Assembly: GCF_000002425.4 (NCBI RefSeq)
Contig: NC_037253.1
Coordinates: forward strand, 17,004,407-17,068,406
Origin: Physcomitrium patens
Taxonomy: Eukaryota > Streptophyta > Bryopsida > Funariales > Funariaceae
Length of the DNA stretch: 64,000 nucleotides
Direction: 5' to 3'
Shown: positions 7,263 to 62,200 of the stretch, in pieces
Numbering within the stretch: the stretch's first letter is position 1
Layout of the letters: each line of letters begins with the position of its first letter
Program-made: the position numbers and the translations under genes
Notes under the pieces: model-generated
Told to the model about the DNA's origin: nothing
Seen by the model: only the letters and a program-made list of their open reading frames with translations
Databases searched by the model: none

Positions 7263-8530
7263 ATGGATAAAAGTTTAAGAAAGTTTAACAAAAGGTCCAT
7301 GGGTATTTTCTTTAGAATGCATTTTGATAAAAGCATTCAAAATGAAAGAATAGAATATTACAATGGCTTGTAAGTGGCTTTGAAATTCAATAAAAGATCA
7401 TCAAGGAATTCCATGAAAATTGGTGGATAAGACATTGAGGCATTTAAGCAATATTTGCTTAAGTAAAATAGAGGCTTTAGTGGAAGGTTGTATATAAAAA
7501 TGTAGTTGATTTGAAGGATCTTGTCAAACATATCAATTATATTTAAATATGAGTCATTGAAATAGATTACATCCAACTTATCCATTAGAAATTCCTTATG
7601 TGGTTGATTAATTTAGTTGCAATATTTATGGAAATTAGACAAAAAGATAATTTCGTACTTGCTTGAGAGGATTGTCTAATTAAGTAGAAAGAAGAGCACT
7701 ATGGACAAAGACTATAGAGGTAGTACATTGATTTTTTTTTGAAGATATTATTTGTTGTTATGGTTGTATTAAAAAACTTATGGTGGATAGGGGCAAATTG
7801 AATACAATAGACATATATAAATTCTTCAAAAAAATAGAGATTAAAATTATTTTAATAATGGCTTATAATTTAAAAGCTTATGGCAAGAGTGAATATGGGC
7901 ATGTACCAATTATGAAAATATTAGTTAAGGCATATAATAGAAAAGTGATGAATTGACCTAAGTTATTATTATTTGCATTATAGGCAAGTTACACCACTTA
8001 TAGTACAATTACAAGATACATGTTGAGGGAATAAATGTATAAGCAAAAATCAGTAATACCACTTAAAAAAGTAGTACTTACGTAGAATATATTACCTTTA
8101 AAAGATAGACCTAGTAGAGATGAATTATTAGTAATAAAAATTTGATAACTTGAGAGAAGACCAAATGACATTGAGTTAGCTATTAAGAAGTTGAAAGAAG
8201 TAAGAATAAAGAACAAAGAGAGATTTGATTGTTAGCATCAATTGCAACTTAAGGCTATTCAAAAGAGAGATTGGATATTTATTTATAATAGTAGCTAGGA
8301 CAAGCAATATAATATAAATAAAAAATATGTTAAGAAGTTATTTCAATCTTATATTTTTATTAAAGCTTATAAAAATGTAATATACTTTTTACAAGAGTTA
8401 GATAGAACAAAGCTAAAGTTATCAATTACAAGTAAGTGAATTAAGTTTTTTTGTAAAAAAGGTAATAAAGACATAGTAAATAATGAAGAACAAGATCTAA
8501 AAGACCTTGAAGATGAAGAAATAATCAAAG
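7263..8530 (+). mobile_element. Gypsy integrase remnant with GPY/F-type C-terminus
   Basis: Decayed integrase of the plus-strand element. Core-domain pieces are visible in translation: a YGCIKKLMVDRGKLN segment at about 7760-7800 and MAYNLKAYGKSEYGH at about 7858-7900, in the positions where integrases carry the second catalytic Asp and the Asn-Ala-Glu region. At 8265-8430, DWIFIYNSS, DKQYNINKKYVKKLF and YFLQELDRTKLKL correspond to the GPY/F-like C-terminal module (DWVLVYDS, Q-KF-RRWFGPY and LxELDG in intact families). The same module occurs on the minus strand at 43,870-44,150 and 63,480-63,800. Stops and frameshifts show it is inactive. Confidence 0.8.
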
Positions 8531-25140: not shown

Positions 25141-25902
25141 AATTATATATTATTCATGATTTTTGGGAACTATTTGAGAGAGCTAAAAATTGTGAGTGAA
25201 GAGGCTCTTCGCTCAAGGGGTGAGAAGTGACCATCATCCCTTTCGCGTGAACGAATGAAAACAAATCAGGCTCGTTCAAAGCGGAGCCGTTTTCATTCAT
25301 CCAAAATGAAAGTCCACGTGGGTGGACAAGGGTTGTGGCCACTATCGATGAATGAATAATTCTCATGGATGACCTACGAATGAATGTAGCGGTGGCTCGA
25401 GGTCGGGAAGGCGCTTGAGCTTTGGGTGCTGTGGAGATTGGTGGCGGAGCAAGCATGGCGCTAGAATTTCCAAATCCGCTTTACCAATGTGAGCGCACAT
25501 TATCAATGGGTATGTGGTAACTACAAAATTCTTGCTGGATTTTTTAAGGGTTTTGGCTTTGTCTTTGTGTTACAGTTTTTTCCAAGGTCCGGTGTCGCTT
25601 TTTGGGATTCTGTTTTGGTTTTGAATATAGTTGCGTGTGTGAATCTCCCCTCGAATTCAATTCGATGATGGTTCCAGCTGCAATTTTGCCTCGATGAGAT
25701 TGTTGCAGATGGATTTCAGTCGACTGTTGACAGTGCAGGCCCGTTGCTTCATCACAGGGGGCTTCATTTGGCAGCAGAATCTCGTGGTAGTGGTGTAGGT
25801 TGAGGGGATGAAGGGTGGGTAGATTAGGATGGTGGATTGATGCAGATTGAGAGTTTGTGGGTTTCTGTGGCCTTGAATCTGGAGGATTGCGTGAGGACTA
25901 CA
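25140..25902 (+). promoter_or_regulatory. Putative promoter/5' UTR of the 5'-nucleotidase gene
   Basis: CpG content rises at about 25,150, 0.75 kb upstream of the first coding exon. An open frame on the minus strand here (25,154-25,456) has no motif and is probably a shadow. Two in-frame ATGs (25,837 and 25,903) precede the coding exon, so the transcription start must lie upstream of at least the one used. No TATA box could be picked out with confidence. Confidence 0.35.
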
Positions 25903-28900: not shown

Positions 28901-31835
28901 TGGAAAGTGTGGCACCGATGGTGGTATCCCTCGAGATGACGAATGGCTCTCCTACTTCGATGTTGTCATTACTGGAAGGTCAGTTTTCTTCTCTCCACTA
29001 ATTCTAGTTCACAATGGAGTTTGAATCTATAAACTTTGGAAGCTTTCATTTGAACTTTTCTTATATTTTTCTACCACCGCCCGCGTTTTGAAATGGCTGT
29101 TGTTGTGGACATAGTGCGAAACCCTCGTTTTTCATGGATGGGAGTAGAGCCTCTCTTTTTGAGGTAGACATTGTAACAGGCATGCTACAAAATACCGACT
29201 CTGGCACACCCATGGCCCAGGTGATTTCTATTTATATATATTAGTGTGTTTTTACCATTATAAGTATGTTCATTGGTCGGTTAGTTATAGTGAAGCGATT
29301 TAAACCTTGGAACATTGATGTAATTTTACCTTTTACTTTTCTCTCAATTTGCAGATTGGTGGAGTTGGTCTTCAAGCTACTGTGTTGCCAAATCCAAATG
29401 TGAAACAAGCCTGTCGAGTGTTTCAGGCAAGCTACTAGTTTACTTTAAATCTTTGAAAGTTACTTAACTTGGCTGTTGTTCTCAGATCTCAATTAGGGAC
29501 TTGAAATTTTTTTCGCTCTCTAATTCTGTAATATGTTTGATGATATTTTTTATGAAACTTGGAGCAGGGGGGTTGTGTTGCTCACCTGCACAAGCTGTTG
29601 TCCATCGAGGCTGGTTCTCAGGTGCTTTTTACTTGTCCTTCAATGTTTTATAATAGTATGAAATAATTTTCTCTTTTCATGTACTGATGGGACATTGCAC
29701 ATGTAATCACGTTGTATTTGCGCTTCAATTTTAGTTTCTTTTAATCGTATTAATTTCGTTTGTTCTGTGGATGGAATTGTCATACATTGCTCGAAGCATA
29801 TAAGGTGTGTAAATGATCGTTGAGGGAGCAGTTTCTTAGAATTTTGAAGTGATTGGGTACTGTCGCAATTAACACTTCCGAATCTACGCTTTTTGAAGCT
29901 GACCAGACATGGATTCTATTTTGACGCTAAAAGAATTGGTTCAGGTTTTATATGTAGGTGATCATATTTATGGGGATATTCTACGAAGCAAGAAAGAGTT
30001 AGGTAACGTTCTTATTTGATTGAGACAACCATTTTGTATAATAACATGCTTATTACATTCAGGTTAGCTTTGTAGTTTGGATGCTTGTAGGCACATGGAT
30101 GCTCTTCCTTACCGCGCACTACTCTTGTTAATTCGCAACCGTTCACGGCACATTCTTGTTGCATTAATTTAAATGTTTGACCTTCTAACCTCATATGAAA
30201 TCGTGTTTGCAGGATGGAGGACAATGCTTGTAGTGCCAGAATTAGCGGTCGAGCTGGATTTACTCCATCAAACCATTAGAACTCGGAAGGTAAAGCTGGA
30301 CCAAGTTACATCAAACTTGCGAGCTCAAGTTTCACTTGTATATGCTTCTCCTTGTTTAGTGTTTATCTCTAACTGATAGTATTATTAACCTTCATTGGGA
30401 CATTAACCATTGAGCTTCGAACCTGCGAAAAAGAGCTTACGACGGCTAAAGTGATATTGCAGTCACACTATAAGAGGGATCGGGATGTATATTTGATAGG
30501 GTAACAATATCTAGTATATTCCTTTCGTGGGTTGGTTTTTGCTCTTACAAGCACCTGTTCTGTGGTCGTCAGCAGGGATGTTTTCACTAGCCTTAATACT
30601 TGAATATACTCCTGGGCTGTCAGTATCTCATTCATTCTTGAGTGGTGAACTGGTTTATGCGTTGTTAATGAGAAAGCGGTTAATAGCGTATCCTGATTAA
30701 CATCTAATCAACACACGGAAATGCCTCTATTACTGTGACTGCAGGGGATTTCCGAGTTGCGCAATCAACGTGATGAAATAGAAGATAGTCTTCAACGTTT
30801 GGAATGGTGTCTCAGGTATGTTCCGACGGTTGTATATGCGGCTGACATTCGTAGCCTCGGTACATTTGTCACACTCGGAAAGTCCTGAAAACTCAATGCA
30901 AGGACCTTGTTGGTCTACCAAGGTTCTTTTTTTTTTTCTTTTGTTTCCTCATCCTGCATGTGAAGCACAACAGCAGCGTAGAGATGGTTCCGAACAAATG
31001 ATTCATTTCTTATTTAATGTAAGCTCTATGGAGATGTGCAGATTTGAAGAACACGCGGATGAGGAGCGGCAAAAGCTAGAGCAGGAGGTGGCCCAGTTGC
31101 GAGTAAGCAGTCCTTTAAAGCCTGCTCCCAACATTTCTTTCCAACAAGGAATATGAGGTCGACTTTTCGAGAATTTGAATTTCGAATGGTTAAAGATGTT
31201 TGCGGTATTTTAGTAGTGCTTATGGGACTTTGTAGATTAAACGTTTTGGGAGTGTTGGATAGGAGGAGGATGAAGCCATACGCGAACAACACCGCCAGGC
31301 CCAAAGGGACTGCCATCACATGGTATGCATAACCAGTGTACCAGTTGAAGTTCCTCCGCTCGATTCTACGGAAGTAAAACATTTCCCATCTAACTGCAAT
31401 GTCGCACTTTGTTCACAGTTTCATAAGACATGGGGGCAGCTGATGAAGACAGGCTATCAAAATTCTCGGTTTGCTCATCAGGTTTGTCGAACATTGATGT
31501 ATTTCTCTACCATATCTGTCTATCATCCTCATGTAGCTGGATAATCGAGCTTCTCCCACCCTTCTCCTTGTAAAGATCTGCTCGATTTCCATCCGTGGAT
31601 TAATGTTTGAAGAAACACACAGATTCAAACGATCTCTTTTAATGCAGAATGCTAGTTATGATCGTTTTAATGTATTTTTTTTCATAAGTTGACCTTACGA
31701 ATTGTGTTCTTATTTTTGTGGGATCAGGTGGAGAGGTTTGCCTGCTTGTACACTAGTCACGTCACTAACCTATGCTACTACTCTCCTAACAAGAGCTACC
31801 GGACCACAGAGGATTTTATGCCTCATGAGCTTTAA
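25903..31835 (+). CDS. HAD-IG family cytosolic-purine-type 5'-nucleotidase, 17 exons, 642 aa
   Basis: Predicted to hydrolyse nucleoside monophosphates by the HAD aspartyl-phosphate mechanism. Exons: 25903-26200, 26889-27199, 27504-27581, 27994-28221, 28361-28443, 28619-28702, 28862-28978, 29115-29220, 29355-29426, 29568-29621, 29945-30002, 30213-30289, 30745-30815, 31042-31102, 31263-31322, 31419-31481, 31728-31835; phases agree and the sum is 643 codons. HAD motif I is DMDYT (nucleophile D169), motif II VTNS (T359), motif III K402 in AKPSFF, motif IV VGDHIYGD (D483, D488). A coiled-coil-like Glu/Gln/Arg segment lies at about 520-570 and the conserved tail GYQNSRFAHQVERFACLYTS follows. Residues 1-60 are Ser/Arg-rich and acid-poor, suggesting a mitochondrial or plastid transit peptide; an alternative in-frame ATG at 25,837 adds 22 residues. 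Intron 9 has a GC donor. The exon 4/5 junction is the least certain. All catalytic residues are present, so the gene looks functional. A piece of its 3' end is duplicated at 55.1 kb. Confidence 0.9.
29427..29567 (+). other. GC-AG intron in the 5'-nucleotidase gene
   Basis: Exon 9 ends TTTCAG and is followed by GCAAGC; the intron ends GAGCAG. Reading phase is kept exactly (24 codons in exon 9, 18 in exon 10), and no GT nearby gives an in-frame join that preserves the conserved CRVFQ-GGCVAHLHKLLSIE segment. GC-AG is the known minor U2-type intron class. Confidence 0.75.
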
Positions 31836-32919
31836 GGTGTCTGGTGATGAGGTATGAGTAACACATTAAGTCATGATCAATCCCTCCCTTTCCAGATATC
31901 TCTCAATTTGGAAATAAAACTTATATAGAAGAGTAAACCATTAAGTCATGATTATTCCCTGCCTTTCCAGATATAGTGTTGTGTAGGATCAATAATTAGT
32001 TGCAAGCATTTGACATTCGGCGCTTTAGATATTTAAAAGACTCCATAGGTTAAACGTTCGTCAAGGGCCCTCTGAGGGTTCCAATGTCCGACAAATGAGG
32101 ATGGTGCTGCCATCAGGGTTATTTAAATACATCTTAATGTGCGGCATTAACTCTTCCATATGTGTTTCTTTCCCTCTGAAATTATCGTATCTTGCAATCG
32201 ATTACTTATTAAGATCGACGTTTTGTCATTGGTCATTTTCAGGGTTGGAGTTGTAAGAGAACCAGAAAAAACCCAAGCCCAAGAACCAAGAGACAGCAAT
32301 AAAAAATCACATCAAATTTCAGAATTTCAAATTTAGTATTGCATGAAAATGTTCTTAATGATGTTCTTTATTGATCAAAGTGAATAGTAGAGGATATTTG
32401 TTAATTTTTTATAACAAGCTGACACATAACTAAGGAGAAACTAAGATTTTAACAAAAATAATAATAACCCTAAAATTAATGACAAGTGACTTCTACAGTC
32501 AGAAGCATCATGGCCTTCCTCAACTCCACGCTTATGATCGGTAACCCAATTCAATCAAAGACTGTACAATATATGTATTTAAAAAATACTGCTCACAATT
32601 TACATCAAATCAAGAGCATTGGTAATACAATACAGTTCCAATGACCCTGATTACTTCAATTTGGACGATGTCAGTCATGCTGTATTCTATGCAAAGTAAT
32701 TAATGGTATCATGACTTGTGCATAAAATTTCTTATTACATCTACAATCCCTAAGCATGATCTGAGCTGCATTAAAAACCAAAACACCAAATCTGTTGCAC
32801 GTACCTAACAAAATTTCTCCCATCCTTAACATCTTACAAGCATCAACCGATTCCAAGGTCGAAGAAATCCACACACTGTACTCTGCACAACGGACATTAC
32901 AATCCAAAATGTGCACACT
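31836..32919. other. Convergent intergenic region, 3' UTRs of both genes
   Basis: The nucleotidase (plus) and RLK1 (minus) converge here with 1.08 kb between stop codons. 32,097-32,335 and 32,390-32,620 have decayed counterparts at 55,460-55,690 and 56,277-56,590, showing that this flank was duplicated together with RLK. From about 32,620 to the RLK1 stop the two copies are identical. No further gene is seen. Confidence 0.6.
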
Positions 32920-35900
32920 CTACCTGGCCCAGGGGAGGAATTGGGTTCCGTGGATTTCGGCAGAGGATGAGAAGTTACCATAACTACTGTCGTTACTCGC
33001 AGAACCTTCCAAAGCTATGGCACCCGTCAGCTCCAGCACCACTTCGTTGATCGTTGGCCTATGTTTGCTTCTGGGCTCCACGCTTTGCAACGCAATCTCA
33101 GCAACTTTCCAAAGCGCATCGACATTCGGATGAGACGCTCTCACCGCAGGATCCAGTATAGCCTCGATATTCCCTTGCGCCAGACTCGCCCGAACCTGAA
33201 CATAACAACATGCCTCAGAATTGCCCCAGTGCATTGTTTCTGCCCCAGAAAGGTCACACTCCGCTTGCATATGCTACAAACGATGCTGCTCATTGCTGCG
33301 TCAACTTTGGTGCTCGCGAATAAAATTACCCAGTCACAGATGTTCCATTCCGTCGGCTTCGACCGGTCGACGGGCAGACGTCCTGTGATCAATTCCAGAA
33401 GTACCACTCCGAAGCTAAAGACGTCGCTCTTGGCAGAGAGCACATTTGTGGAGAAGTACCTGGACAGTTGCATTGCATGAATTCAGTCCTTCATACTCAA
33501 GCCTTCCTCAACAGACTGCTACATCCAACTTCTGGTGCGTCGCCCTCCACTCATTGTCGAATCACAACGGCATCTACGGAGTGAAACAAGAACTGAAACC
33601 TGAAAAGTACGATTGCAGATGTATGGCTTACTCTGGATCCAGGTACCCAGCTGTGCCCTTGACAAACGTGACGACCTTTGTTATGTCCTCATCACCAACG
33701 AGCCTTGACAGCCCAAAGTCTGTCAGTCTCCCTTCGTATTTGGTGGTGATGAGGATGTTGCTGCTCTTCACATCACGGTGTATCAAACTCGGACTGCACC
33801 CTTTGTGTAGGTACTCCAACCCTGCAATCATTCCACGAGGACCAGAGAATTATGCGCAAGCTGTGCACTCCACTTTGGTGCAGCATATCACATCAAAGGA
33901 AATTGCTTCAAGTGCATTCCGGCACAATACCTGATGCTGCATGGAGGGCAATGTTAAGTCGGGTCTTCCAGTCCAGCACATCCGGTCCAGAATTGGCAGA
34001 GCCCTCTGTTGTCAATCGAGACCTATGAGCCGTTAGCGTTCAAAATGTTCACGAACGTCGAGGTACGTGAAAGCAAGTGGAGTAGGTCAAAGCTTATGGG
34101 AGGAATCGGAAAACGTCGCTGGTCATGGCCTATCCTGAACCAGTCGAGACAGGATGTTCAAAGCTCACCAGATGTGACTGTACCACTGAGATGGTCTCGC
34201 AGGGAGCCCCTGTGGATATACTCGTAGATCAACATCATCTGCATCCCTGGTACTCTGCAATATCCTACAAGATTTACAAGATGCTTGTGGTGGACTCTGG
34301 ACAGAATGTCGACTTCGTTGAGGAACTCTGTCTCCCCTTGGCGAGATTCTTTATCGAGGACCTTCACTGCAACTTCTCTGCCATCCGTCAACCTGCCGTA
34401 GTACACGGGGCCGAAGCCTCCTCTCCCGATCACCTTCTTGTAGTTGGCCGTTGCAGCAACGATCTCGTCGGGAGAGAATTTTCGGGCACCTGTGGTCATA
34501 GATTGTAAGTGCCTGCTTCCATCTTCCAGCTATATTGCTGCGTGAGAGTAAATGAGTCGTTGACCAACAGCTGCACGCGGTACAATTCATCGCTGCTTTA
34601 GGGTGTAGGGTGTGAGATAAAGCTAACAACTGACCTCCATGAATGTTTGAAGTTAGGTTGATGTTGATCTCCTTGCTTACAATGTTTGGATTCGAATTTC
34701 CAACTATTAGGGTGTCCATATCTTTTGCAGGACGACGATTTCGACGGCAAACTAAGTAGTACACAAGAGCAACCACGATCGCCACAAATGCCACTCCTCC
34801 TGCCACTCCACCTACAATGGCTGCAGTATTGGTTGAAGGCGATGCTGGCAGTGTCGCATTCAAGAGCGGATTTCCGTAGTAGCTAACAAAGAGTTGCACA
34901 AACGCGCTTGAGTTAGGAAGTATGTACGTTGCTGTTGTGACGTCACACAGCTATGGGCCTGTAAGTTGCTAGATGATGTTGGAACAAGGGACAGTATCTT
35001 ACGTGAAATTCCAATTCTTGCTCGAGAACGCTGAGGGGATTTTGCCACTGAAGTTGTTGTTCTGCACAATCCTGCAACTCGGAAAGGGACATGACCACAA
35101 TGATGACAAAAGCTCTGTGATAATCAGCGGGGTTTGTGGTAAATGTTGATTACACTATGGTTTGGTAAGAGTGGGTCAAGAGTGCTCACAACTCGCGAAG
35201 CTTTGGTAGAAAAGCAAGCCACTCTGGAAGCGGTCCACTCAGTGCGTTGTCTTGTAAATGTCTGGACATAGACACAAACGCGTAGGTTAGTGCCAATTTG
35301 CTGCGGAATGTGAATTGGATTCGTATTTTGGAACCACCAAATAGTTAGGAACTCACAATGTTTTCAAGTTCGTCAAGGCACTCAAGTCAGGTAGTTGCCC
35401 CGTCAGAGAGTTGCCATCCAACTTCCTGCACATGGAAAGGACGTCCCAACCTCAGCCATATGGAATGGCGCGGGAAATTGATCGGCATGGAAGGGTGTTC
35501 AACTGGCTACAGGAGGGGGCTCAGGACGTTTGTACACTTACAAGGTGGTGAGGTCTAGAAGGTCGTTGAAGCTGGGTGAGATGGCTCCAGTTAAGTTTTC
35601 TGCTGATAGTACTCTGGGAAGGTTGATTCAGAATTGGAACCAGGTCAGAATTGAAATGGCTACTTTCCAGCATGATTGGATCAACCTGCAGAGTAAAGTG
35701 CAAACGTGAGGAAACGATAAACGCAAACATCTTACACTGTAAGAACGGCTGGATTTTCCGTTTTGTCCACTGAACTACAATTGATCCAATGGTGAGGTTT
35801 TGGGAGACAAGGGTCGCCTCGCCAACTTGTCAAATTCATGTCCACCTTGATGCTCTCGATTGCAGCCCAGTCCCGATCGTTTGTAGGTGCAACCAGTGGG

Positions 35901-37353
35901 TCGCAAATTTTGTAGATCTCCATGGCGGTCAGTATGGGACCTTTCATCGATGTTCGGAACGGATCGGGATAGAAGATAATTCTTGACTGTTGTTTAATAT
36001 TGGCTTCAGTCAGATTAACACCATATAGCTTTAATGTTGCTCCTGTCTCATTTACCACATTTAGCAGTGAAGGCTCAGTTTCTCCAGGTTCAAGTAGGTT
36101 GAAGATTCGATCCGTTTTGTTGGTTGTCAAGTCGAGCTCCACAAAGTAATATTGTATATATGCTTTGAAAGGTTCGCTTGGGTTCAAGTCAATTGTGAGG
36201 TTCCCGTTGGTTGTCATCCCACTACGCAAAACGTCTTGTGGGGTTCCTTTCAGATAAATTGGAACCGAAGATGTGCCAATTCTCGTGTCACTTTTTGCTT
36301 GAAGTCCAACTGGCGTTGAAGTACATATAATAGCACTGGCACACCTTAGCGGATATTCATTTTCGTTGGATTCAATGACGGATGGATACCAGTATCGATC
36401 GTAAGGATCGCCAGGGTACCTGGAATGCGGTCGGCACGAAAAGCGTATTCATAAGTTAGAAACATTGACTCAAGGAGAGGCAGACGTTTTCACCAGTGGC
36501 AAACCCAAAGCGTCATATTGAAACTTACTTTATGATATTTTTGTTAATTTGTGAGCCGCCAAGATAGAAACGGGTCTGGGTGGTCACTATCTGGTTAGTA
36601 TCCAACCAACCAGTTATAAACTCAGATACCATCGATTTCTCAATAGCACGGAGTGCAATATTAGAGATGAAGGGGGTACTATCACTTGGATCCTGCACAA
36701 GGCAAAGCGATGTTTCGTTCGTAGCCGCAGTCTGAAATGTCACCTCATGTATGAACCTATCAGACACATCTAGAATTGAGACAGTCTCGAAAATTGTGGA
36801 ATCCAAGCCTAATTGAAAGCTAGGTGGGGACATGGATTTGTCGTAGCCTCCATGATAGAATCCAAGTCTCATAATATAAATACTTCTGGGTTTTACTGGA
36901 AGTGTGAAGCAATTCTTGGTACGGGATTCTCCTTTGAAGTAGCGAAGAGCCTTTTCCTCTGGCCAGTCGGTGTTGGGTAGATTGCGCGCGATTTTTCCAG
37001 TTGATACGAAAGCATCATCTGGATGCCATGTTATGCCATGCTTATCTGTGTACTCTTTTGAGGCGCCACAGTCGAGGTGCAGGAAGTCTGAGCCAATTTG
37101 AAACAACTCACAGCGTTGGTGCCTCCGAGGACTTCACGGCGGATGGAAGAAGTCTAATAGACTCGTAAGGACAGACCAACATCCTATGTGTGATATTGGA
37201 TCGGGGAGCCGGAAAGGAATGGACACAACAATAAAAACCTCTCGAAAACTAAAGCATCACAAACTTACCAGTTTTAGGATCTACCACACTCCACGCACCA
37301 GGAACACTGACCATGCAGAATAGCAGTGCCAACACTCCCCATAGCGAGTCCAT
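32920..37353 (-). CDS. RLK1: malectin-like/LRR receptor protein kinase, 13 exons, 960 aa
   Basis: Plasma-membrane receptor kinase, probably sensing an extracellular ligand. Exons on the minus strand: 37353-37269, 37087-36529, 36419-35736, 35613-35542, 35425-35357, 35261-35190, 35071-35003, 34882-34635, 34522-34169, 34005-33931, 33821-33632, 33459-33330, 33195-32920; phases agree and the total is exactly 961 codons. A signal peptide covers residues 1 to about 21. A malectin-like domain (about 29-415) ends in [15 protein letters not shown]. LRRs (about 440-537) are encoded by 69/72-nt exons in one phase. The transmembrane segment (about 557-581) is followed by RRNRR. The kinase has [11 protein letters not shown] (652-662), K673, HRD (777-779), DFG (797-799) and GYLDPE: an apparently active RD kinase, close to plant LRR-I/malectin receptor kinases. 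RLK2 is a near-identical copy at 56.9 kb. Confidence 0.93.
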
Positions 37354-38680
37354 CAAGATGAACGCACTAGTTGGTGTGACCCAAAATCTCCTCCGACACT
37401 TCACACGCTTAGAACAGCGTCCCTGTGCTCACTTCTGGAACCCGACTTGTAGTCACCCCTTCTCACTCTGCACCTGCCTCCCTGCTGCAGCAATTGAGTT
37501 GGGGTGGACACATTGTGCGTGATGAAGTTGGGACATTGTCGGCAAGAGACTGGTAGTTTACCGACTTTAAATCATAAGTAAGAAGTTTGTTAGATTAATT
37601 TTTAGAAATCAGAATTCCAAAAACAGAAATTAAAGTACTGAATAGTTTTGAAATGTCTGTTTATACTTTGATAATATTTTATTATTAATATTTGAAAAAT
37701 TTTATTTATTATTTGGTTTAAAGTTAATATAAGTAAGTATTTTGTAAGATTAAAATATTTACACAACAATACAAACATAATTTAACAACTTATTAAAATA
37801 AATACCTTTTTTTATTTAGCATCCATATGGTTTTTGAAGTATTACCTTTCATAGTTAATATGATCAAGAACTATTAAAATTCTGTTTTCTTTTTCTTTTT
37901 CTTTTTTTTTCTTTTATTATCTTCTAACAATTGATTCTTATGAATAGAATAAGCAGACTTCAATATAAAGTGGCTGTTTAGTTTGTTGTAAAAGTATAAA
38001 TTAGTATTTATTTTTTAATTTTATTATTCACTTCTTAAAATATAGTTTACTTTCTTATCCTAAGTACACTTACTTAATACAACAAAATATTTTTTGCTAT
38101 ATGAATTTTTATTATTTCATAGTAATTCAATACTATTATAAAAAAATTGTTTTAACCATGTATTAGATTATTGAGTGAATGATAAAATGTTAAGTATTCA
38201 AATAATTAAACATTCAAAAATCAAACAGACCACAGCATGTTTATATACCACAATTACATGATTGATTTTTTGTATTTTATCAAGCCATCAAATATTCACC
38301 AAACCAAAAACACAGACATCTAAAATCCATGTTTCAAAATCAGCCCTTCCAAAATAATGAACTAAGAATACTAAATACAACACATTCACATAACACACAT
38401 GATTCCCTACTAATAAAGAAAATCATCCCCATGCCCCTTTGTTCCATATCCCCCATCACCATGAGCTTTGTCTCCCCTACCCCGACAAAATAAATAAATA
38501 AATAAATAATCAATATTAGTAAATTTTAAATATAAAAAATTCAACCCCGTAGAAGGACACGAGACAAGACAACATCAATACAACATTCAATTCATGAATT
38601 TATTATTAATTGAAATCATATTTACATACAAAAAGGATCTTATAATGTTCATACAAGAAAAGTGGCACTTTTGGAATATG
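37354..38680. other. RLK1 upstream region, then AT-rich spacer
   Basis: 37,354-37,565 is CpG-normal and identical (one mismatch seen) to 61,320-61,531 upstream of RLK2; it is presumably the proximal promoter/5' UTR. Identity stops abruptly at 37,565. Beyond is AT-rich DNA with no coding signal. Confidence 0.55.
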
Positions 38681-43673: not shown

Positions 43674-45919
43674 ATCCACCTCCCTTGAACATGTCCTTCT
43701 TGCAACATGTGCCAAGTTTTTTTTTCATTATATTGATATAGGGTATTTTGCATCTCCATGAAATTCTTAATCTTTAATTTGTTCATCTTCTTCCATTTCA
43801 ATGTCCCATAATAGATTTTATTCTTCATTAAAAAAAATATCTTCACCTCTTTGTTCAAATAACTTTATTTATTTGTCTACTATAGGTATCTTCAATTTTA
43901 TACCATCAAGTTCTTGTAACAAGTATGTTCTATTATTATATACTTATTTGACAACATAATGTCCAAACAATCTCTTTGCAAATTTTTTTGTTGTGCAATA
44001 TTGATTGTCTAAGCTATTATCATAAATTAACATCCAATCGCCAACTTCAATTGTCTTAGGTTATAATTGATGTTTCTCTTATCAAATATTTCTTTATTAT
44101 TTTTCCTTTCTTCTTTCAACCTCTTTATTATTGCTTCAATATCATTAGATCTTCTTTTTAATCATTGAATCCATAATGCTAAAAATTCCTTTTCATTGAA
44201 ATCATCCTTTTAAGGTAATATATTCCATGTATGTACTATCTCTTCTATTGGCATCTTCAATTTTTATCTATGTATTAATTTAGAAGGCATAAAACATGTT
44301 ACTGAGCTATAAGTTATTCAATCAACTCATAATACAAGTAGTAGTAGTCTGGGCCATTCATATGCTTTGCCATTGCATGTCTTTACTAATGCCTTAATAA
44401 TAGATGAATGTCTACGCTCACGCTTACCATTACCTTACGAATTATATGTTTTTTTTAATAAAAAGTTTAATTCTCATTTCGCTAAAACATTCTTGTATTT
44501 TTCTTCCATCCAATTCACTCCTTTCAACTATTATTTTTTTTAATACAACTATAGCAATAAATAATATCTTTCAATAAAAATCAGCATACACCTTTAGTAT
44601 TCTTTGTTTTTAATGCTTGTCTTTCAACCATATTGGATAAATCTTCTTGTGCAAGTATCAAATACTTCATTTGTCCAAGTTTCATAGGCATGTGCATTTT
44701 ATATTAAACTAAGGTACTAAATCTACCATCTACTTAAAATGTAAAGCTAAAAGATAAGTTGGATGTAATCCATCTCAATGCCATATGTTTGAATATATTT
44801 GGTAACTTTCACAAGATCATATAAAATTTGCTATACCTTTGTGCATGCCCTTTCACTAATATTTTACTTTCAATTTAATAAATGTTGTCCAAATATCCCC
44901 ATACCATGTTCATAAACTTTTATAAAATTCCTTAATAATCTTTTATTGAGCTTCTAAACCACATATCTCCTATTGTAGTACTTCTCTTCTTCACTTTAAA
45001 TGCTTTTATAAATATCCATCATGTAAAAAATATTCATAGGCTTTCTTACGGATTTTCTTAAATTCTTGATTTTTCCATTCTTCTTGTCACTTTAATGTGC
45101 TTAAATACTCCTCAACATCTTTCCATTTTCCTTCATGTAAATCTCTTGAAAATATTTCTAATGATGTATTTAAATATATACCTTCTTCTTTTGATAATAA
45201 ATTAGTATAAAAATTTGTATCCACATCATCTTCTAAATCAATCATATTTTCTTCATTGTAGTACCTTAGTCTTGATAACATATCTACAACTAAATTTTCT
45301 TTTCCTAAAATATATTTAAATTCTAGATTCATAGATTTGATAGTTACTATCTATCTAAATATAGTAATATTAAAAATTTAATAATTTGTAATTATGTTCA
45401 ATAAAGATAGAAAATATATTTTTATAATTACTAATGCATCAATCAAGTATTTTTAAAATTTTTCATAGTTATTATTATATCCCATAATTTTTTTATTGAT
45501 TTGTACATACGTCCTTTTCTTAACATTCAAAATCTTTGTTTCAAACTTTACTACATATCTATTCTCTTATTCATCATCTTATCCAATTGCTCAACCTATT
45601 CCAATTAGACTTGTATCAATTGTTAATATCACTAGCCTTCTATATTTGTAATTAATTTTCTTCAAAGTTAGAGATTAAAAAAAAAAATCTTTTAATTTTT
45701 TCATTATTTTTTTATTCTTTTTTTTATTAATTTTTTTATTCTTTCTAAATAATTCATATAATAGATTTATTACATGTGTAAAATAAGGTATTTATATATA
45801 ATAGAAAATATATGCTCCTAAAAATCTTTTAATTTTTGTTGTATTTGTACATTCTTTCATTTTTTTAATAATATCAATCTTTCCTATATTAGGCTTATAT
45901 CTATATAATCTATACATAT
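43674..45919 (-). mobile_element. Element B, 3' half: RNase H and integrase
   Basis: Downstream part (in element orientation) of the pol gene of B, separated from its RT by nested element A. Just below 45,915 the frame reads YRYKPNIGKIDIIKKMKE and then FLGAYIFYYIYIPYFTHV, the connection after RT. RNase H ends with FKYILGKENLVVDMLSRL at about 45,320-45,260. Integrase core pieces lie at about 44,900-44,250 and the GPY/F module (MLIYDNSLDNQY, KKFAKRLFGHYVV, LLQELDG) at 44,020-43,890. Frameshifts and stops abound. The copy is inactive. Confidence 0.8.
45915..45919. repeat. Target-site duplication of element A, left copy
   Basis: CATAT immediately left of the LTR of element A; the same five bases are at 50,586-50,590 at its other end. 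Five base pairs is the usual Ty3/gypsy duplication length. Confidence 0.75.
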
Positions 45920-50081: not shown

Positions 50082-50585
50082 TGAAATGGGATTAAATTCT
50101 CTTAAAGATATAAAACCCTTTTAGTATATAGCAATATAAATTCTATCAAAAAATAGGACAAAATGGACGAGAAAAAAATTAAGCAGAATTAAAAATAAAG
50201 ATAAAACAAAGTAAAAATAAATAAAACAAAATAAAACAAAATAAAATAAAAAATGTAAACCAACCTTTACTAAGACAAAGGAATTAAAGCCATACTTGAC
50301 TAAATGCCCTAAATTATCTTGATTAATCCTATTTATACTTTATCCAACCATCTTCGAACTTTTTAGAATGTCCTTAATGATGGATCCTACCAAGATAATC
50401 GTCCTTCTAGAAGATTCTAGAAATGGATTCTATCTAGATAATTGCCTTTAATTCTTCTTATATTTTCTATGGTGGATCCTATATAAACCACCAACTTAGC
50501 CCCAATTCTAAAAAAATTTCAAAAATGGCCCTAATTATGTATTTTTACATGTCAATAATATAATTATTTTATCCATGCCTTGTTA
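50082..50585 (-). mobile_element. 5' LTR of nested gypsy element A
   Basis: Partner of 45,920-46,476. The left terminus is TGAAATGGG (TAAAATAAG in the other copy: three G-to-A changes). Its right end at 50,585 is followed by CATAT, the target duplication. LTR-LTR divergence is high by eye, so insertion is not recent. Confidence 0.85.
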
Positions 50586-50590
50586 CATAT
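50586..50590. repeat. Target-site duplication of element A, right copy
   Basis: CATAT directly right of the 5' LTR of A, matching 45,915-45,919. Confidence 0.75.
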
Positions 50591-52742
50591 GTGTTCTACT
50601 ACCAAATCTTCTTTTACTTGAAATAATAATTTTGTCCTTGATAAGGTTAAAATAACTTCTCCTAACCTTATCAAAATCTTCTCACAATCATCAATATGAT
50701 CCACCACAAACTTCTTACATCTCTTTGAATCCAATGTCTCATCTTTTCTTTCTTCTTTACATTATTTAATTAGCTTATCATTTAGGAAAGATATTTTTAT
50801 ATTTAGAATAAATTTTCTTAATATCTTATTCATTCCATTCATCATATGTGCTACAAAATTTATAACCCTTTGTAATAAGGTATACATTTTGCCCAATCTT
50901 AATAGTATCTTCATAGTTATTAAATCTCTACTATGCATTTTCAATTGAAATTGATCATATCTCAAATAAAGATCTCTCATAGAATAAAATTTTCTCTCAA
51001 TTCAACCACAGATGCCATTACAAATTCATCCACAATTGGACTTGAATCCATATTATGTCATTTATTGGTTGCATATCTTGAATAATCTTCAATATTCTAT
51101 TCTTATTACATACTAAAAACCATCAATTAAAATATGATGTAATAAACTATTCTATAATTTCTATTATAATATTTTCATTGAGTAATTTGACTAGAATTGC
51201 CCTCAAATTCTATGGTTCATGTGGAATTGTGAAAACAACCATAGGTACTACAATACTTAGATCAATGCACCCTATTTCATGTGATTCAAATAAAAATATC
51301 TTATCATATCATAAAAGCATATCTTTGAAACATTTCCCTTTATTTCTTATCAAAAATTCTTCACATCCAACTTTTAAATCATCTAATGTTAATTCATCTT
51401 TGAATTCATGACCTATTTTTTTGGGATTCCTTGAATTATGTTGCATAAAAGCCTTCTCAATCTATTATTTAAAATCCAATGGTAGTAGAAATACCACTAT
51501 TTTAATCTTTTTTGAAACAATTTTATATTTTGCATTCATTATCATTTCATACTTATTCATATATTCTTTCATTACATCATAAAATTGCTTAGAATGGATG
51601 TTTATTATCTTATCACCACCTTCAAAATCCAAATCTAATAACATTTAAAAATTATCTATAGTATCATTAAAGCAAGATTCTTCAAATATTCCTAATATGT
51701 ATTCATCTTCATCAATTATTCTATATTTCTTCAACTCATATTTTATATTTTTTACATTTTTTTTTCTATCTTTTTCAAATTATTTATATTTTTTAATAAA
51801 ATATATCCATTCCATAATAATCCTATAATGGCCTCATTTCTTTTACTAGATAGAAAGCCATCACCCTTTGCACTATTGCAAGTCCACTTTATAATGGCCT
51901 TTAGTCAAAAAATCCTTTGAGTCATTAAGATCTTTAAATTCTTTGTGTATCCTTGATAAAGGATGCTCTCTCAAACTATCTCAATTTCTTTTGTAATTTG
52001 CACAAACGGTTAAAAATTACATGACCTTCTTTCAAGCTTAACTTCTTACATAGGCCAAACCATCATCTAAAACTTTTGTTTCCATTCACGTGGCAATAAT
52101 ATAACGGTTGTCCTAATATAACAGGATATGTAGACATATCTTGTGCTAAGAAATTTTATTCATAAATAACATCTCCTATTGTCACTTTGATATTAGGACA
52201 AGGTCCATACAAATCCTTCTTTGAATTTTTTATTTTTCTTATAATCTTTCTATGTTCAATATCAATAAGTCATTTTTTTTCTTTTATGTAATTCTTTTGA
52301 AATTAAATTAATTTCAAAACCATGATCAATTAATGCCACAATTGGTTCTTCTAAATCTTCTAATTTTACCAAACTTTCTATAGTAGTCATAGTTCAATGA
52401 CTTCAAGAATAATGAATAAAAGCTTGAATCACATCATCTTTTTTTTATAAATCTTACTAGCAAGATGTCTCCAAAAAATTGCATTTCATCTTCTTCATCT
52501 TTATTTCTTTCCATTGCTCTTGTTTATTGTACATTTAATGTCATAATATCTTTAATAGATAGTCATTTTTTCTTTATTATATCAATAATAACTTCATAAA
52601 ATTCACGCTTTGCAATTCCTAGAATTTTACCAATTATGAATTCAATCTTTTTATTTATAATCTAATCCTCTAATACTTTCTTCAAATCAATAGCAACTTC
52701 AATATTGGATTGTAATTTATAAGTAAGAGCCTTTGCTTTTTC

Positions 52743-55087: not shown

Positions 55088-55440
55088 TGCCATCACATGG
55101 TACATATCACCAGTGTACTAATTGAAGTTCCTTTGCTTGATTCTTCTAAAGTAAAACATTTTCCATCAAACTCCAATGTTGCACTTTCTTCATAGTTTCA
55201 TAAGACACGGAGGCAGCTGATGAAGACAAGCTATCAAAATTCTCAAACATTGATATCTTTTCCTACCATATCTGTCTATCATCCTCATGTAGCTAGATAG
55301 TTGAGCTTCTCTTATCCTTCTACTTGTCAAGGTCTGCTCAATTTTCATCCATAAATTAATGTTTGAAGAAACACACCAATTCAAATAATCTTTTTTAATA
55401 CAAAATGCTAGTTTTGATCATTTCAATGTATTTATTTTTA
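55088..55440 (+). pseudogene. 3'-end fragment of the 5'-nucleotidase gene
   Basis: Decayed copy of 31,310-31,665: end of exon 15, intron 15, exon 16 and part of intron 16. Exon 16 lies at about 55,188-55,245 and reads FHKTRRQLMKTSYQNS instead of FHKTWGQLMKTGYQNS. Exon 17 and the stop codon are missing; the sequence jumps to the counterpart of about 32,097. Many changes are C-to-T or G-to-A. It cannot encode a product. Confidence 0.8.
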
Positions 55441-55889
55441 ATGAGTTGACCTTATGAAATGTGGATGGTGCTGCCATCAGGGTTATTTAAATACATCTTA
55501 ATGTGGGGCATTACCTCTTCTACATGTGTTTCTTTCCCTCTGAAATTATCGTATATTGCAATTGATTACTTATTGAGATCAACGCTTTGTCATTGGGCAT
55601 TTTCAGGGTTGGAGTTGTAGGAGAACCAGAAATAACCAAAGCCCAAGAACCAAGAGACTGCAATCAAAAATCACATCAAATTTTAGAACTTCAAAAGAAA
55701 CCAACATGTTGCCATCAACGCCAATTGGTATTAGGTTTGCACATTTAAAACCTTGATAGTATGGTTAGTTGACCTTTGTGATTGTTTAATTTAACAAATG
55801 TATGGAAGTATATTAGGCCAAGAGTACATTAGATGGATTACAGGGTGGGATTGTTTATTAGTACAAAATGTTTGATGTGTCAAATTTAA

Positions 55890-55925
<36 letters not shown>

Positions 55926-56885
55926 TCTGTTATCTTTCTGGAGCTAATGTATTGTACGACTCATTGTGTGATACTAGTGTTTTTTTTGTATCTGATTCAA
56001 TTTTTGAAGTTGACTTATCTTCTAATCATTGGTTCTTAGTTTATCTTTAAAGTTTATGGAGAGGACACTGTAATTTTTTTTTAAATACTCATTTCGTTAA
56101 TTATTTTGATACTAAATAATAGATAGCAATTTCTTATGTAAATAAAGTTAGTTTGATTGAATGATTTATTTTTATACTTCTATTCTACTACAGACAGCAC
56201 AAAATCTAATTCAAAAATGTGATTGTAATGCTCATTTTTGTAGCATTGCATAAAAATGCTCTTTATCAACAAAAGTGATTAGCAGGGAATAATTGTTAAA
56301 TTTTTTCTAACAAGCTGACACATAACTAAGGAGAAACTAAGATTCTAACAAAAATGATAATAATCCTAAAATTAATGACACGTGACTTCCACAGTCAGAA
56401 GCATCATGGCCCTGCTAAAATTTCCTCAACTCCAGGCCTACGATCCAAAGTTTGCACATAGGGTTAGGTACTCATTGTGCCATTGGTATCCAAATCCAGT
56501 GCATAAACCAATAGGGTGTTGTACACTGCAGAATCGTTAATCCAATTCAATCATAGACTCAAGATTTGCATCAAATCAAGAGCTTAAGTAATACAATACA
56601 GTTCCAATGACCCTGATTACTTCAATTTGGACGATGTCAGTCATGCTGTATTCTATGCAAAGTAATTAATGGTATCATGACTTGTGCATAAAATTTCTTA
56701 TTACATCTACAATCCCTAAGCATGATCTGAGCTGCATTAAAAACCAAAACACCAAATCTGTTGCACGTACCTAACAAAATTTCTCCCATCCTTAACATCT
56801 TACAAGCATCAACCGATTCCAAGGTCGAAGAAATCCACACACTGTACTCTGCACAACGGACATTACAATCCAAAATGTGCACACT
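55441..56885. other. Duplicated intergenic flank with a unique insert
   Basis: 55,460-55,690 corresponds to 32,097-32,335 and 56,277-56,590 to 32,390-32,620, both visibly diverged. Between them, about 55,695-56,230 has no counterpart in the first copy; it includes a (TA)n tract (55,890-55,925) and a short open frame of no recognised family. From about 56,590 to the RLK2 stop the copies are identical. Confidence 0.6.
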
Positions 56886-59800
56886 CTACCTGGCCCAGGG
56901 GAGGAATTGGGTTCCGTGGATTTCGGCAGAGGATGAGAAGTTACCATAACTACTGTCGTTACTCGCAGAACCTTCCAAAGCTATGGCACCCGTCAGCTCC
57001 AGCACCACTTCGTTGATCGTTGGCCTATGTTTGCTTCTGGGCTCCACGCTTTGCAACGCAATCTCAGCAACTTTCCAAAGCGCATCGACATTCGGATGAG
57101 ACGCTCTCACCGCAGGATCCAGTATAGCCTCGATATTCCCTTGCGCCAGACTCGCCCGAACCTGAACATAACAACATGCCTCAGAATTGCCCCAGTGCAT
57201 TGTTTCTGCCCCAGAAAGGTCACACTCCGCTTGCATATGCTACAAACGATGCTGCTCATTGCTGCGTCAACTTTGGTGCTCGCGAATAAAATTACCCAGT
57301 CACAGATGTTCCATTCCGTCGGCTTCGACCGGTCGACGGGCAGACGTCCTGTGATCAATTCCAGAAGTACCACTCCGAAGCTAAAGACGTCGCTCTTGGC
57401 AGAGAGCACATTTGTGGAGAAGTACCTGGACAGTTGCATTGCATGAATTCAGTCCTTCATACTCAAGCCTTCCTCAACAGACTGCTACATCCAACTTCTG
57501 GTGCGTCGCCCTCCACTCATTGTCGAATCACAACGGCATCTACGGAGTGAAACAAGAACTGAAACCTGAAAAGTACGATTGCAGATGTATGGCTTACTCT
57601 GGATCCAGGTACCCAGCTGTGCCCTTGACAAACGTGACGACCTTTGTTATGTCCTCATCACCAACGAGCCTTGACAGCCCAAAGTCTGTCAGTCTCCCTT
57701 CGTATTTGGTGGTGATGAGGATGTTGCTGCTCTTCACATCACGGTGTATCAAACTCGGACTGCACCCTTTGTGTAGGTACTCCAACCCTGCAATCATTCC
57801 ACGAGGACCAGAGAATTATGCGCAAGCTGTGCACTCCACTTTGGTGCAGCATATCACATCAAAGGAAATTGCTTCAAGTGCATTCCGGCACAATACCTGA
57901 TGCTGCATGGAGGGCAATGTTAAGTCGGGTCTTCCAGTCCAGCACATCCGGTCCAGAATTGGCAGAGCCCTCTGTTGTCAATCGAGACCTATGAGCCGTT
58001 AGCGTTCAAAATGTTCACGAACGTCGAGGTACGTGAAAGCAAGTGGAGTAGGTCAAAGCTTATGGGAGGAATCGGAAAACGTCGCTGGTCATGGCCTATC
58101 CTGAACCAGTCGAGACAGGATGTTCAAAGCTCACCAGATGTGACTGTACCACTGAGATGGTCTCGCAGGGAGCCCCTGTGGATATACTCGTAGATCAACA
58201 TCATCTGCATCCCTGGTACTCTGCAATATCCTACAAGATTTACAAGATGCTTGTGGTGGACTCTGGACAGAATGTCGACTTCGTTGAGGAACTCTGTCTC
58301 CCCTTGGCGAGATTCTTTATCGAGGACCTTCACTGCAACTTCTCTGCCATCCGTCAACCTGCCGTAGTACACGGGGCCGAAGCCTCCTCTCCCGATCACC
58401 TTCTTGTAGTTGGCCGTTGCAGCAACGATCTCGTCGGGAGAGAATTTTCGGGCACCTGTGGTCATAGATTGTAAGTGCCTGCTTCCATCTTCCAGCTATA
58501 TTGCTGCGTGAGAGTAAATGAGTCGTTGACCAACAGCTGCACGCGGTACAATTCATCGCTGCTTTAGGGTGTAGGGTGTGAGATAAAGCTAACAACTGAC
58601 CTCCATGAATGTTTGAAGTTAGGTTGATGTTGATCTCCTTGCTTACAATGTTTGGATTCGAATTTCCAACTATTAGGGTGTCCATATCTTTTGCAGGACG
58701 ACGATTTCGACGGCAAACTAAGTAGTACACAAGAGCAACCACGATCGCCACAAATGCCACTCCTCCTGCCACTCCACCTACAATGGCTGCAGTATTGGTT
58801 GAAGGCGATGCTGGCAGTGTCGCATTCAAGAGCGGATTTCCGTAGTAGCTAACAAAGAGTTGCACAAACGCGCTTGAGTTAGGAAGTATGTACGTTGCTG
58901 TTGTGACGTCACACAGCTATGGGCCTGTAAGTTGCTAGATGATGTTGGAACAAGGGACAGTATCTTACGTGAAATTCCAATTCTTGCTCGAGAACGCTGA
59001 GGGGATTTTGCCACTGAAGTTGTTGTTCTGCACAATCCTGCAACTCGGAAAGGGACATGACCACAATGATGACAAAAGCTCTGTGATAATCAGCGGGGTT
59101 TGTGGTAAATGTTGATTACACTATGGTTTGGTAAGAGTGGGTCAAGAGTGCTCACAACTCGCGAAGCTTTGGTAGAAAAGCAAGCCACTCTGGAAGCGGT
59201 CCACTCAGTGCGTTGTCTTGTAAATGTCTGGACATAGACACAAACGCGTAGGTTAGTGCCAATTTGCTGCGGAATGTGAATTGGATTCGTATTTTGGAAC
59301 CACCAAATAGTTAGGAACTCACAATGTTTTCAAGTTCGTCAAGGCACTCAAGTCAGGTAGTTGCCCCGTCAGAGAGTTGCCATCCAACTTCCTGCACATG
59401 GAAAGGACGTCCCAACCTCAGCCATATGGAATGGCGCGGGAAATTGATCGGCATGGAAGGGTGTTCAACTGGCTACAGGAGGGGGCTCAGGACGTTTGTA
59501 CACTTACAAGGTGGTGAGGTCTAGAAGGTCGTTGAAGCTGGGTGAGATGGCTCCAGTTAAGTTTTCTGCTGATAGTACTCTGGGAAGGTTGATTCAGAAT
59601 TGGAACCAGGTCAGAATTGAAATGGCTACTTTCCAGCATGATTGGATCAACCTGCAGAGTAAAGTGCAAACGTGAGGAAACGATAAACGCAAACATCTTA
59701 CACTGTAAGAACGGCTGGATTTTCCGTTTTGTCCACTGAACTACAATTGATCCAATGGTGAGGTTTTGGGAGACAAGGGTCGCCTCGCCAACTTGTCAAA

Positions 59801-61319
59801 TTCATGTCCACCTTGATGCTCTCGATTGCAGCCCAGTCCCGATCGTTTGTAGGTGCAACCAGTGGGTCGCAAATTTTGTAGATCTCCATGGCGGTCAGTA
59901 TGGGACCTTTCATCGATGTTCGGAACGGATCGGGATAGAAGAAATTTTTCGACCCAGGTCCAATATTGGCGCTATCGTTATAAACACCATATAGCTTTAA
60001 TGTTTCTCTTGTTCGATTTACCACATTCACCAGGAAAGGCTCAGTTTCTCCAGGTCCAACTAGGTAGAAGCTTCGATCCGTTTTGTTGGTTGTCAAGTCG
60101 AGCTCTACAAAGTAATATTGTATATATGCTTTGAAAGATACGCTTGAGTCCAAGTCAATTGTGAGGTTCCCGTTGGTTGTCATCCCACTACGCAAAACGT
60201 CTTGAGGGGTTTCACTCAGATAAATTGGAACCGAAGATGTGCCAATTCTCGTGTCACTTTTTGCTTGAATACCAACTGGCGTAGAAGTACATGAAATAAT
60301 ACTGGCATACCTCATCGGATAAGAATTTGTGTAGGATCCATTGGCGGATGGATACCAGTACCGATCGTAAGGATCGCCAAGGTGCCTGGAATGCGGTCGT
60401 CACGAAAAGCGTATTCATAAGTTAGAAACATTGACTCAAGGAGAGGCAGACGTTTTCACCAGTGGCAAACCCAAAGCGTCATATTGAAACTTACTTTATG
60501 ATATTTTTGTTAATTTGTGAGCCGCCAAGATAGAAACGGGTCTGGGTGGTCACTATCTGGTTAGTATCCAACCAACCAGTTATAAACTCAGATACCATCG
60601 ATTTCTCAATAGCACGGAGTGCAATATTAGAGATGAAGGGGGTACTACCACTTGGATCCTGCACAAGGCAAAGCGATGTTTCGTTCCTAGCCGCAGTCTG
60701 AAATGTCACCTCATGTATGAACCTATCAGACACATCTAGAATTGAGACAGTCTCGAAAATTGTGGAATCCAAGCCTAATTGAAAGCTAGGTGGGGACATG
60801 GATTTGTCGTAGCCTCCATGATAGAATCCAAGTCTCATAATATAAATACTTCTGGGTTTTACTGGAAGTGTGAAGCAATTCTTGGTACGGGATTCTCCTT
60901 TGAAGTAGCGAAGAGCCTTTTCCTCTGGCCAGTCGGTGTTGGGTAGATTGCGCGCGATTTTTCCAGTTGATACGAAAGCATCATCTGGATGCCATGTTAT
61001 GCCATGCTTATCTGTGTACTCTTTTGAGGCGCCACAGTCGAGGTGCAGGAAGTCTGAGCCAATTTGAAACAACTCACAGCGTTGGTGCCTCCGAGGACTT
61101 CACGGCGGATGGAAGAAGTCTAATAGACTCGTAAGGACAGACCAACATCCTATGTGTGATATTGGATCGGGGAGCCGGAAAGGAATGGACACAACAATAA
61201 AAACCTCTCGAAAACTAAAGCATCACAAACTTACCAGTTTTAGGATCTACCACACTCCACGCACCAGGAACACTGACCATGCAGAATAGCAGTGCCAACA
61301 CTCCCCATAGCGAGTCCAT
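56886..61319 (-). CDS. RLK2: malectin-like/LRR receptor protein kinase, 13 exons, 960 aa
   Basis: Paralogue of RLK1 at a constant offset of +23,966 bp, with every splice site kept: 61319-61235, 61053-60495, 60385-59702, 59579-59508, 59391-59323, 59227-59156, 59037-58969, 58848-58601, 58488-58135, 57971-57897, 57787-57598, 57425-57296, 57161-56886. Domain order and the GxGxFG, K, HRD, DFG and DPE motifs are as in RLK1, so it should be an active membrane kinase. Exon 2 differs by two residues (T to R, D to G); kinase, transmembrane and LRR parts are identical as far as I can read. Exon 3 residues 216-363 (second half of the malectin-like domain) differ at about 38 positions without length change. 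The two receptors probably differ in ligand or partner recognition while sharing signalling output. Confidence 0.92.
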
Positions 61320-62200
61320 CAAGATGAACGCACTAGTTGGTGTGACCCAAAATCTCCTCCGACACTTCACACGCTTAGAACAGCGTCCCTGTGCTCACTT
61401 CTGGAACCCGACTTGTAGTCACCCCTTCTCACTCTGCACCTGCCTCCCTGCTGCAGCAATTGAGTTGGGGTGGACACATTGTGCGTGATGAAGTTGGGAC
61501 ATTGTCGGCAAGAGACTGGTGGTTTACCGACCGGGCAAAACGTATACCGATTTCTTGGTCAGTTTGTTTATTGTCAAGATACTTCGGAGAATCAAGGATT
61601 GAAATACTCACCCCACATTTTTGTTGGGTAGCTAATTTTAGTAGTGGAAAATGAACATTATGAGCCCTTCATTTAGTCCTTTAATGGTGAACTACACAGG
61701 CGAGAAAGTCTAACGTAAAAAGTTAAAACTGGTGTCAACAGGATATTGATTCAATCGACGTGTATAAATAACTCTATTTAACTTTTGTATCTACCTGTTA
61801 TGTGATCAATCAATTTGTATAAGTATAAATTGTGAGCAGGTGGAAATTTAATTATTTCTTATTACACCAATATCTGTAATTAGTGTTAACCACTCTATTT
61901 GCAACATGTAGAAACAAATTTATTAATGTATTGAGTTACTTTCTTAACTTCTTTGTTTCATGTTAATCCAATTGTTGAATCTTTTTGTGGTTGCATTTTG
62001 CATAACAATATCTAAACTAATATCCAAATAGTGATATACAATAAATATGGATATTGATGTAGATTGCATAATTTTAATAAGGTGATTACAAGAATTATAC
62101 AATAAAGTAGAGTAAGGCAATCTTATCTTTGATCATGTAACTAGCTTGATGACGTTCATCTTCTTTTAGCTTTTACTTTTATGATTCTTCTTCTAAAGAC
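61320..62200. other. RLK2 upstream region, then AT-rich spacer
   Basis: 61,320-61,531 equals the region upstream of RLK1; identity ends at 61,531 (37,565 in copy 1). A short CpG-bearing stretch continues to about 61,600 without a match in copy 1, then the DNA becomes AT-rich. No gene. Confidence 0.5.

Follow-up and report, generated by a model that had tools for sequence, protein, structure and literature searches.

An old peak of divergence in the ectodomain of two tandem receptor kinases of Physcomitrium patens, probably left between tracts of gene conversion

Results

Gene models and domain order

The window, i.e. the whole 64,000-nucleotide stretch of Physcomitrium patens DNA analysed here (G000:C1:17,004,407-17,068,406, C1 being the first contig), carries two tandem genes for malectin-like/LRR receptor kinases, RLK1 and RLK2, both on the minus strand (Table 1). 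In our hand-built models both genes are intact, with an open frame and GT-AG borders at all 12 introns, and by eye both proteins show hydrophobic stretches at the N-terminus and at the position after the LRRs. The best match of RLK2 in the protein search is P0001, a P. patens protein that is 100% identical over residues 29-500 and bears the source name 'probable LRR receptor-like serine/threonine-protein kinase At1g67720', a name that we take to place it in LRR-I. In P0001 the malectin-like domain (PF12819, 33-386), the LRRs (LRR_8, 464-521) and the kinase (PF07714, 636-912) all pass the Pfam cut-offs and follow one another in the order expected of a malectin-like LRR receptor kinase. Genome-wide searches covered the 470-Mb assembly of 101 contigs.

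Table 1. Features of the RLK1/RLK2 pair and its shared flank (window coordinates)
Feature	RLK2 or single position	RLK1 counterpart	Strand	Remark
RLK2, malectin-like/LRR receptor kinase, 13 exons, 949 aa	56886..61319		-	hand-built model
RLK2 exons 1-7	61319-61235, 61053-60495, 60385-59702, 59579-59508, 59391-59323, 59227-59156, 59037-58969		-	hand-built model
RLK2 exons 8-13	58848-58601, 58455-58135, 57971-57897, 57787-57598, 57425-57296, 57161-56886		-	hand-built model
RLK1, 949 aa		32920..37353	-	exon structure of RLK2, every exon 23,966 bp lower
Divergent patch (RLK2: codons 216-363 and one intron base)	59943..60400	35977..36434	-	64/458 sites differ; RLK1 block from the alignment to RLK2
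Homogenised tract 3' of the patch, 3,355 bp	56588..59942	32,622-35,976	-	0 differences
Homogenised tract 5' of the patch, 1,131 bp	60401..61531	36,435-37,565	-	3 differences
Shared 3' flank piece	55088..55463	31,311-31,706	.	54/375 sites differ
Shared 3' flank piece	55457..55695	32,093-32,331	.	18/239 sites differ
Shared 3' flank piece	56256..56445	32,361-32,539	.	19/179 sites differ
Stretch in the RLK2 flank only, about 560 bp	55696..56255		.	indel since duplication
Stretch in the RLK1 flank only, about 386 bp		31707..32092	.	indel since duplication

Divergence along the gene pair

RLK1 and RLK2 align without a gap over 4,974 bp (32,592-37,565 / 56,558-61,531) at an offset of 23,966 bp, and the 73 differences between them fall into groups of 6, 64 and 3. 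The 64 lie in a single sharp-edged block of 458 bp, the patch, whereas only 9 of the 4,516 aligned sites outside it differ. Six of these nine crowd into the first 30 bp at the extreme 3' edge of the alignment, and the remaining three are found at RLK1 positions 36,682, 36,721 and 37,555. Runs free of any difference extend for 3,355 bp on one side of the patch and, on the other side, for 247 bp adjoining it and for 833 bp further on.

The patch makes up most of the second malectin-like half-domain, within the limits of PF12819. Its intron edge consists of a single differing base (60,400), 15 bp inside intron 2; the patch then runs from the first codon of exon 3 to codon 363 and stops short of the conserved end of the second half-domain. 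Between the two proteins 38 of the 148 patch residues differ, compared with 2 of the other 801. At the level of codons, 44 of the 148 in the patch are changed, 38 of them by replacement, while the other 801 carry two replacements and no silent change. RLK2 also has one extra N-glycosylation sequon in the patch (N230) and one that is moved by a residue (350 to 351). These counts largely bear out an earlier note on this DNA, which had described two receptor kinases nearly identical in exons and introns at this offset, a block of about 460 bp that differs heavily without any change in length, and about 38 changes in some 150 residues (216-363). The block had also been placed in exon 3 and the adjacent intron edge, of which the intron part shrinks to the one base; the two replacements elsewhere had been set against 810 residues instead of 801; and the statement that nearly every changed codon is a replacement holds as a count (38/44), but random placement of the changes already leads one to expect about 78%.

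The tract 3' of the patch contains the rest of exon 3, the LRRs, the transmembrane segment, the kinase and the 3' end, and the 5' tract contains most of intron 2, the first malectin-like half-domain, the signal exon and 212 bp upstream of the ATG. Both exon 2 replacements, T151R and D164G (RLK1 to RLK2), are among the three differences of the 5' tract. Since an outgroup copy, RLK3, carries the RLK2 base at both, RLK1 looks derived at 36,682 and 36,721. The two bases (60,648 and 60,687 in RLK2) lie 39 bp apart in the first malectin-like half-domain. Residual differences are unevenly distributed between the sides (3/1,131 in the 5' tract versus 0/3,355 in the 3' tract; p = 0.016), so the two tracts appear to differ in age or history, which fits separate events.

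The shared 3' flank and the upstream ends

The two genes share a 3' flank of three collinear pieces in which 91 of 793 sites differ, i.e. 11.5% (interval 9.3-13.9%); the poorly aligning stretch 32,540-32,591 / 56,446-56,557 was left out of this count. Genome-wide, the flank segment 55,088-55,695 (608 bp, two of the three pieces) matched the two loci and, apart from these, just a 51-bp fragment of another contig, and the third piece was found at the two loci within the 273.6 kb around the cluster that were searched for it. Because the 608-bp main part is confined to the two loci apart from that fragment, the flank belongs to no repeat family. We take it to be single-locus DNA that was duplicated together with the genes and has diverged since, and its 91 differing sites and two indels indicate a duplication older than the homogenised tracts.

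The patch is equally diverged: its 14.0% (10.9-17.5%) overall and about 9.4% (4.4-15.8%) at silent sites lie in the same range as the 11.5% of the flank. The identical tracts, in contrast, show 0 differences in 4,435 sites (upper bound 0.07%). With a patch as diverged as the flank and 4,435 bp free of any difference, the straightforward view is that the rest of the gene was homogenised and the patch was not.

At the other end, the two genes are nearly identical up to 212 bp upstream of their start codons, where the likeness breaks off abruptly (37,566 and 61,532 upwards). A strict search upstream of 37,565/61,531 gave no further match between RLK1 and RLK2. A looser match that runs on through AT-rich DNA was discarded, as its 53-58% identity is a level also seen between unrelated stretches. 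Convincing similarity thus ends 212 bp upstream of the ATG, so that the promoters and the regulation of the two genes may differ.

A third, broken copy

Does the genome hold a donor for the patch? The whole assembly contains three matches to it, namely the patch itself, RLK1 at 89% and RLK3 at 72%, the latter in inverted orientation (C1:16,901,798-16,902,157). The frame of RLK3 is broken by stops in exon 3, the front of exon 2 is missing, and the homology ends within exon 5, so that the kinase exons are absent as well; we regard this copy as a pseudogene. An intact third paralogue matching the patch was not found in the DNA search of the 470-Mb assembly. Being broken and only 72% identical to the patch, RLK3 was rejected as a conversion donor and served as an outgroup instead. 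Of the 64 differing patch sites, it shares the RLK1 base at 23 and the RLK2 base at 29, and matches neither copy at 12 (p = 0.49), a split which suggests that both patches changed to a similar degree, as expected of two drifting lineages. The protein search with the patch region returned P0001 alone (1 of 625 candidates), and no close moss relative occurred among the best 120 of the 279 protein matches of RLK2.

RLK3 as a whole is an inverted, broken relative (G000:C1:16,901,069-16,902,870) about 140 kb from RLK1. At 4-5 kb from it lies a kinase-domain match with 49-63% identity to RLK2 (G000:C1:16,906,719-16,907,758, minus strand), which is on the strand opposite RLK3 and is perhaps a separate receptor kinase gene.

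Selection on the patch

Nei-Gojobori counts for the one RLK1-RLK2 pair, restricted to the patch, gave 52.5/331.8 replacement sites and 10.5/112.2 silent sites, corresponding to a dN of 0.178, a dS of 0.100 and a dN/dS of 1.78 (one-sided p = 0.025 by codon bootstrap, 0.048 by Fisher test and 0.026 by random placement). In the random placement of the same base changes about 12 silent codons were expected and 6 were seen. The replacement excess suggested by this single pair is modest and marginally significant. Selection on amino acids alone cannot make the contrast between the patch and the remainder, since the copies are not alike at silent sites either: about 10.5 of 112 such sites differ in the patch, compared with 0 of 580 elsewhere. 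As for position, if 458-bp blocks were placed at random in the aligned tract, about 2% of them would have 95% of their length within the second half-domain, a post hoc figure for which the half-domain was approximated as residues 216-386.

Is the second half-domain variable in general? Among 53 relatives, angiosperms and others, taken from the 120 listed, the patch columns were no more variable than the first half-domain (mean entropy 1.07 vs 1.28), and the replaced patch columns no more variable than the unchanged ones (p = 0.65), so general hypervariability of the second half-domain found no support in these 53 relatives and was set aside. Within the moss ectodomain, the patch least often carries the family majority residue (21%, vs 32% in the first half-domain). 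The exon 3 frame had no match among solved structures at E 0.001, and the profile of alignment A1 matched 3,024 sequences, of which the 60 listed have their best stretches on the LRR or the kinase, none of them on the malectin-like part.

Discussion

We consider it probable that, after an old tandem duplication, gene conversion homogenised the copies to either side of the patch but did not reach the patch itself. Once produced by the duplication, RLK1 and RLK2 would have accumulated a divergence of roughly 10-15%. At a later time, interlocus gene conversion would have overwritten two tracts, one of about 3.4 kb and one of about 1.1 kb, that enclose a 458-bp island, leaving the original divergence only in the island and in the DNA beyond the tracts. 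The patch is probably not newly hypervariable and keeps older differences between RLK1 and RLK2, visible as a local peak of divergence between paralogues with homogenised sides (64/458 versus 9/4,516 sites). Tandem genes of P. patens have been noted as very similar, and conversion has been proposed as the cause (PMC3045890). In the open-access literature we found no paper that deals with the RLK1/RLK2 pair, or with malectin-like kinases of this moss undergoing conversion.

Why would the island have been spared? We speculate that the copies came to read different ligands or partners through it, in which case conversions covering the island would have been removed by selection; in the kinase, the LRRs and the first half-domain the copies need not differ, and these parts would have been free to be homogenised. 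The two copies may accordingly sense different things through the island. We infer conversion as the homogenising process from one genome, and selection as the sparing cause likewise; towards the latter we lean slightly, although column variability among the 53 relatives lends it no support. A serious though less favoured account has the same history with the patch spared by chance, two independent neutral conversion tracts having ended on either side of it. Two chance tracts leaving a neutral gap would look the same, the unequal residual differences on the two sides make separate events plausible, and the selection statistics are weak; yet the block lies almost exactly on one half-domain, its dN/dS is above 1, and the homologous half-domain is the divergent block in alleles of the Arabidopsis kinase OAK (PMC3136440).

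Explanations that start from a recent duplication fit less well. The earlier note had proposed either diversifying selection or conversion from a third paralogue. In the second case, a recent whole-gene duplication would have been followed by conversion of 458 bp of one copy from a diverged third paralogue; sharp edges and a gap-free alignment are what a conversion tract would leave, but the genome search for a donor turned up only the broken, inverted copy at 72%, and a recent duplication would have left the adjoining flank near-identical, whereas it differs by 11.5% and two indels. We therefore judge this course of events improbable. In another account the duplication is again recent and the patch arose by point mutation, either with strong diversifying selection or through local hypermutation; the 38 replacements among 44 changed codons and the dN/dS of 1.78 speak for it. 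Against it stand the silent sites, which differ in the patch and are unchanged elsewhere, and the outer flank, which is as diverged as the patch; among all the accounts we give this one the least credence. The interpretation given in the earlier note is thus partly supported. The evidence base is a single assembly, in which near-identical sequence might have been copied between the loci during assembly or polishing. Such an artefact seems quite unlikely to us, given that both genes are open and correctly spliced throughout and that the loci have distinct flanks. In addition, the RLK2-type protein P0001 is assigned to a contig of 30,315,119 bp, compared with 30,242,098 bp here, which suggests that a second assembly holds RLK2; this protein comparison bears on RLK2 alone, the relatives of RLK1 having been clustered at 90%.

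By analogy, the pattern of conversion around a spared island would be that of the human red/green opsins, whose paralogues are homogenised but retain old divergence in a narrow peak at a functional site. In opsin exon 5, selection maintains a divergence peak in the face of gene conversion (Teshima and Innan 2008, cited in PMC3924837). The likeness comprises tandem copies about 24 kb apart, homogenisation by conversion and a sharp divergence peak over what would be the specificity-setting part. For the opsins, however, maintenance of the peak is documented by orthologues in several primates, and it is known what the differing residues do, whereas the moss pair comes from one genome and from sequence only. 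Unlike the opsins, RLK1 and RLK2 appear homogenised in exons and introns alike, with an outer flank that is still diverged. Another close system is the GOT1p1/GOT1p2 pair of the copepod Tigriopus californicus, which differs in being an enzyme and in having population data (PMC3728101).

The nearest parallel in domain and family is OAK (OUTGROWTH-ASSOCIATED KINASE) of Arabidopsis thaliana, likewise a malectin-like/LRR receptor kinase, encoded by 13 exons and belonging to a tandem cluster, whose versions differ at 55 of 152 residues (180-331) versus 19 of 721 elsewhere; the divergent block coincides with the second malectin-like domain, which its authors attribute to positive selection or gene conversion; they also describe a tract of 2.7 kb that was recently converted between paralogues (PMC3136440). 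In OAK the versions are alleles of two accessions that cause a hybrid outgrowth phenotype via promoter and ectodomain, whereas RLK1 and RLK2 are two paralogues in one haploid genome, known from their sequence; a further likeness is that the promoters of RLK1 and RLK2 may differ too. In an Arabidopsis pan-genome, AT5G59680 of the OAK cluster belongs to the 20 orthogroups that rank highest in nonsynonymous ratio, and the table of positively selected sites includes AT5G59670 (PMC12382012). With P0070 as a proxy for OAK, whose numbering we assume to be similar, residues 180-331 align with residues 198-372 of the moss protein, a span that takes in the whole patch (216-363). The moss patch would thus fall on about the same half-domain as the divergence between OAK alleles.

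Mosses and the lineage of Arabidopsis parted several hundred million years ago. It is a tentative idea, which we regard as doubtful at present, that LRR-I kinases have a recurrent specificity module in their second malectin-like half-domain, at which near-identical receptors have been kept different independently in mosses and in Arabidopsis while conversion equalised the rest. If so, such pairs would be natural receptor sets that differ in input but share their output, and they might act as heteromers, as has been proposed for OAK; the parallel, if it holds, would point to the specificity-setting part of malectin-like LRR kinases, for which few ligands are known. RLK1 and RLK2 would amount to a natural domain swap, with common promoter-proximal DNA, first half-domain, LRRs and kinase, and with essentially 38 residues of one half-domain differing; as gene targeting is efficient in this moss, one could test directly how this half-domain affects ligand choice. 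The pair also calls for caution, because with two near-identical genes alone a block can seem hypervariable when it is the remainder that was homogenised.

Besides the gene pair, the window contains a partial gene of the 5'-nucleotidase family on the plus strand (25,828-27,382, with a PF05761 match in frame at 26,843-27,382). It also holds two sets of inverted repeats of 1.3 kb and about 66% identity (50,563-51,821 / 5,130-6,420 and 43,778-45,080 / 7,261-8,529), which are probably old transposable elements.
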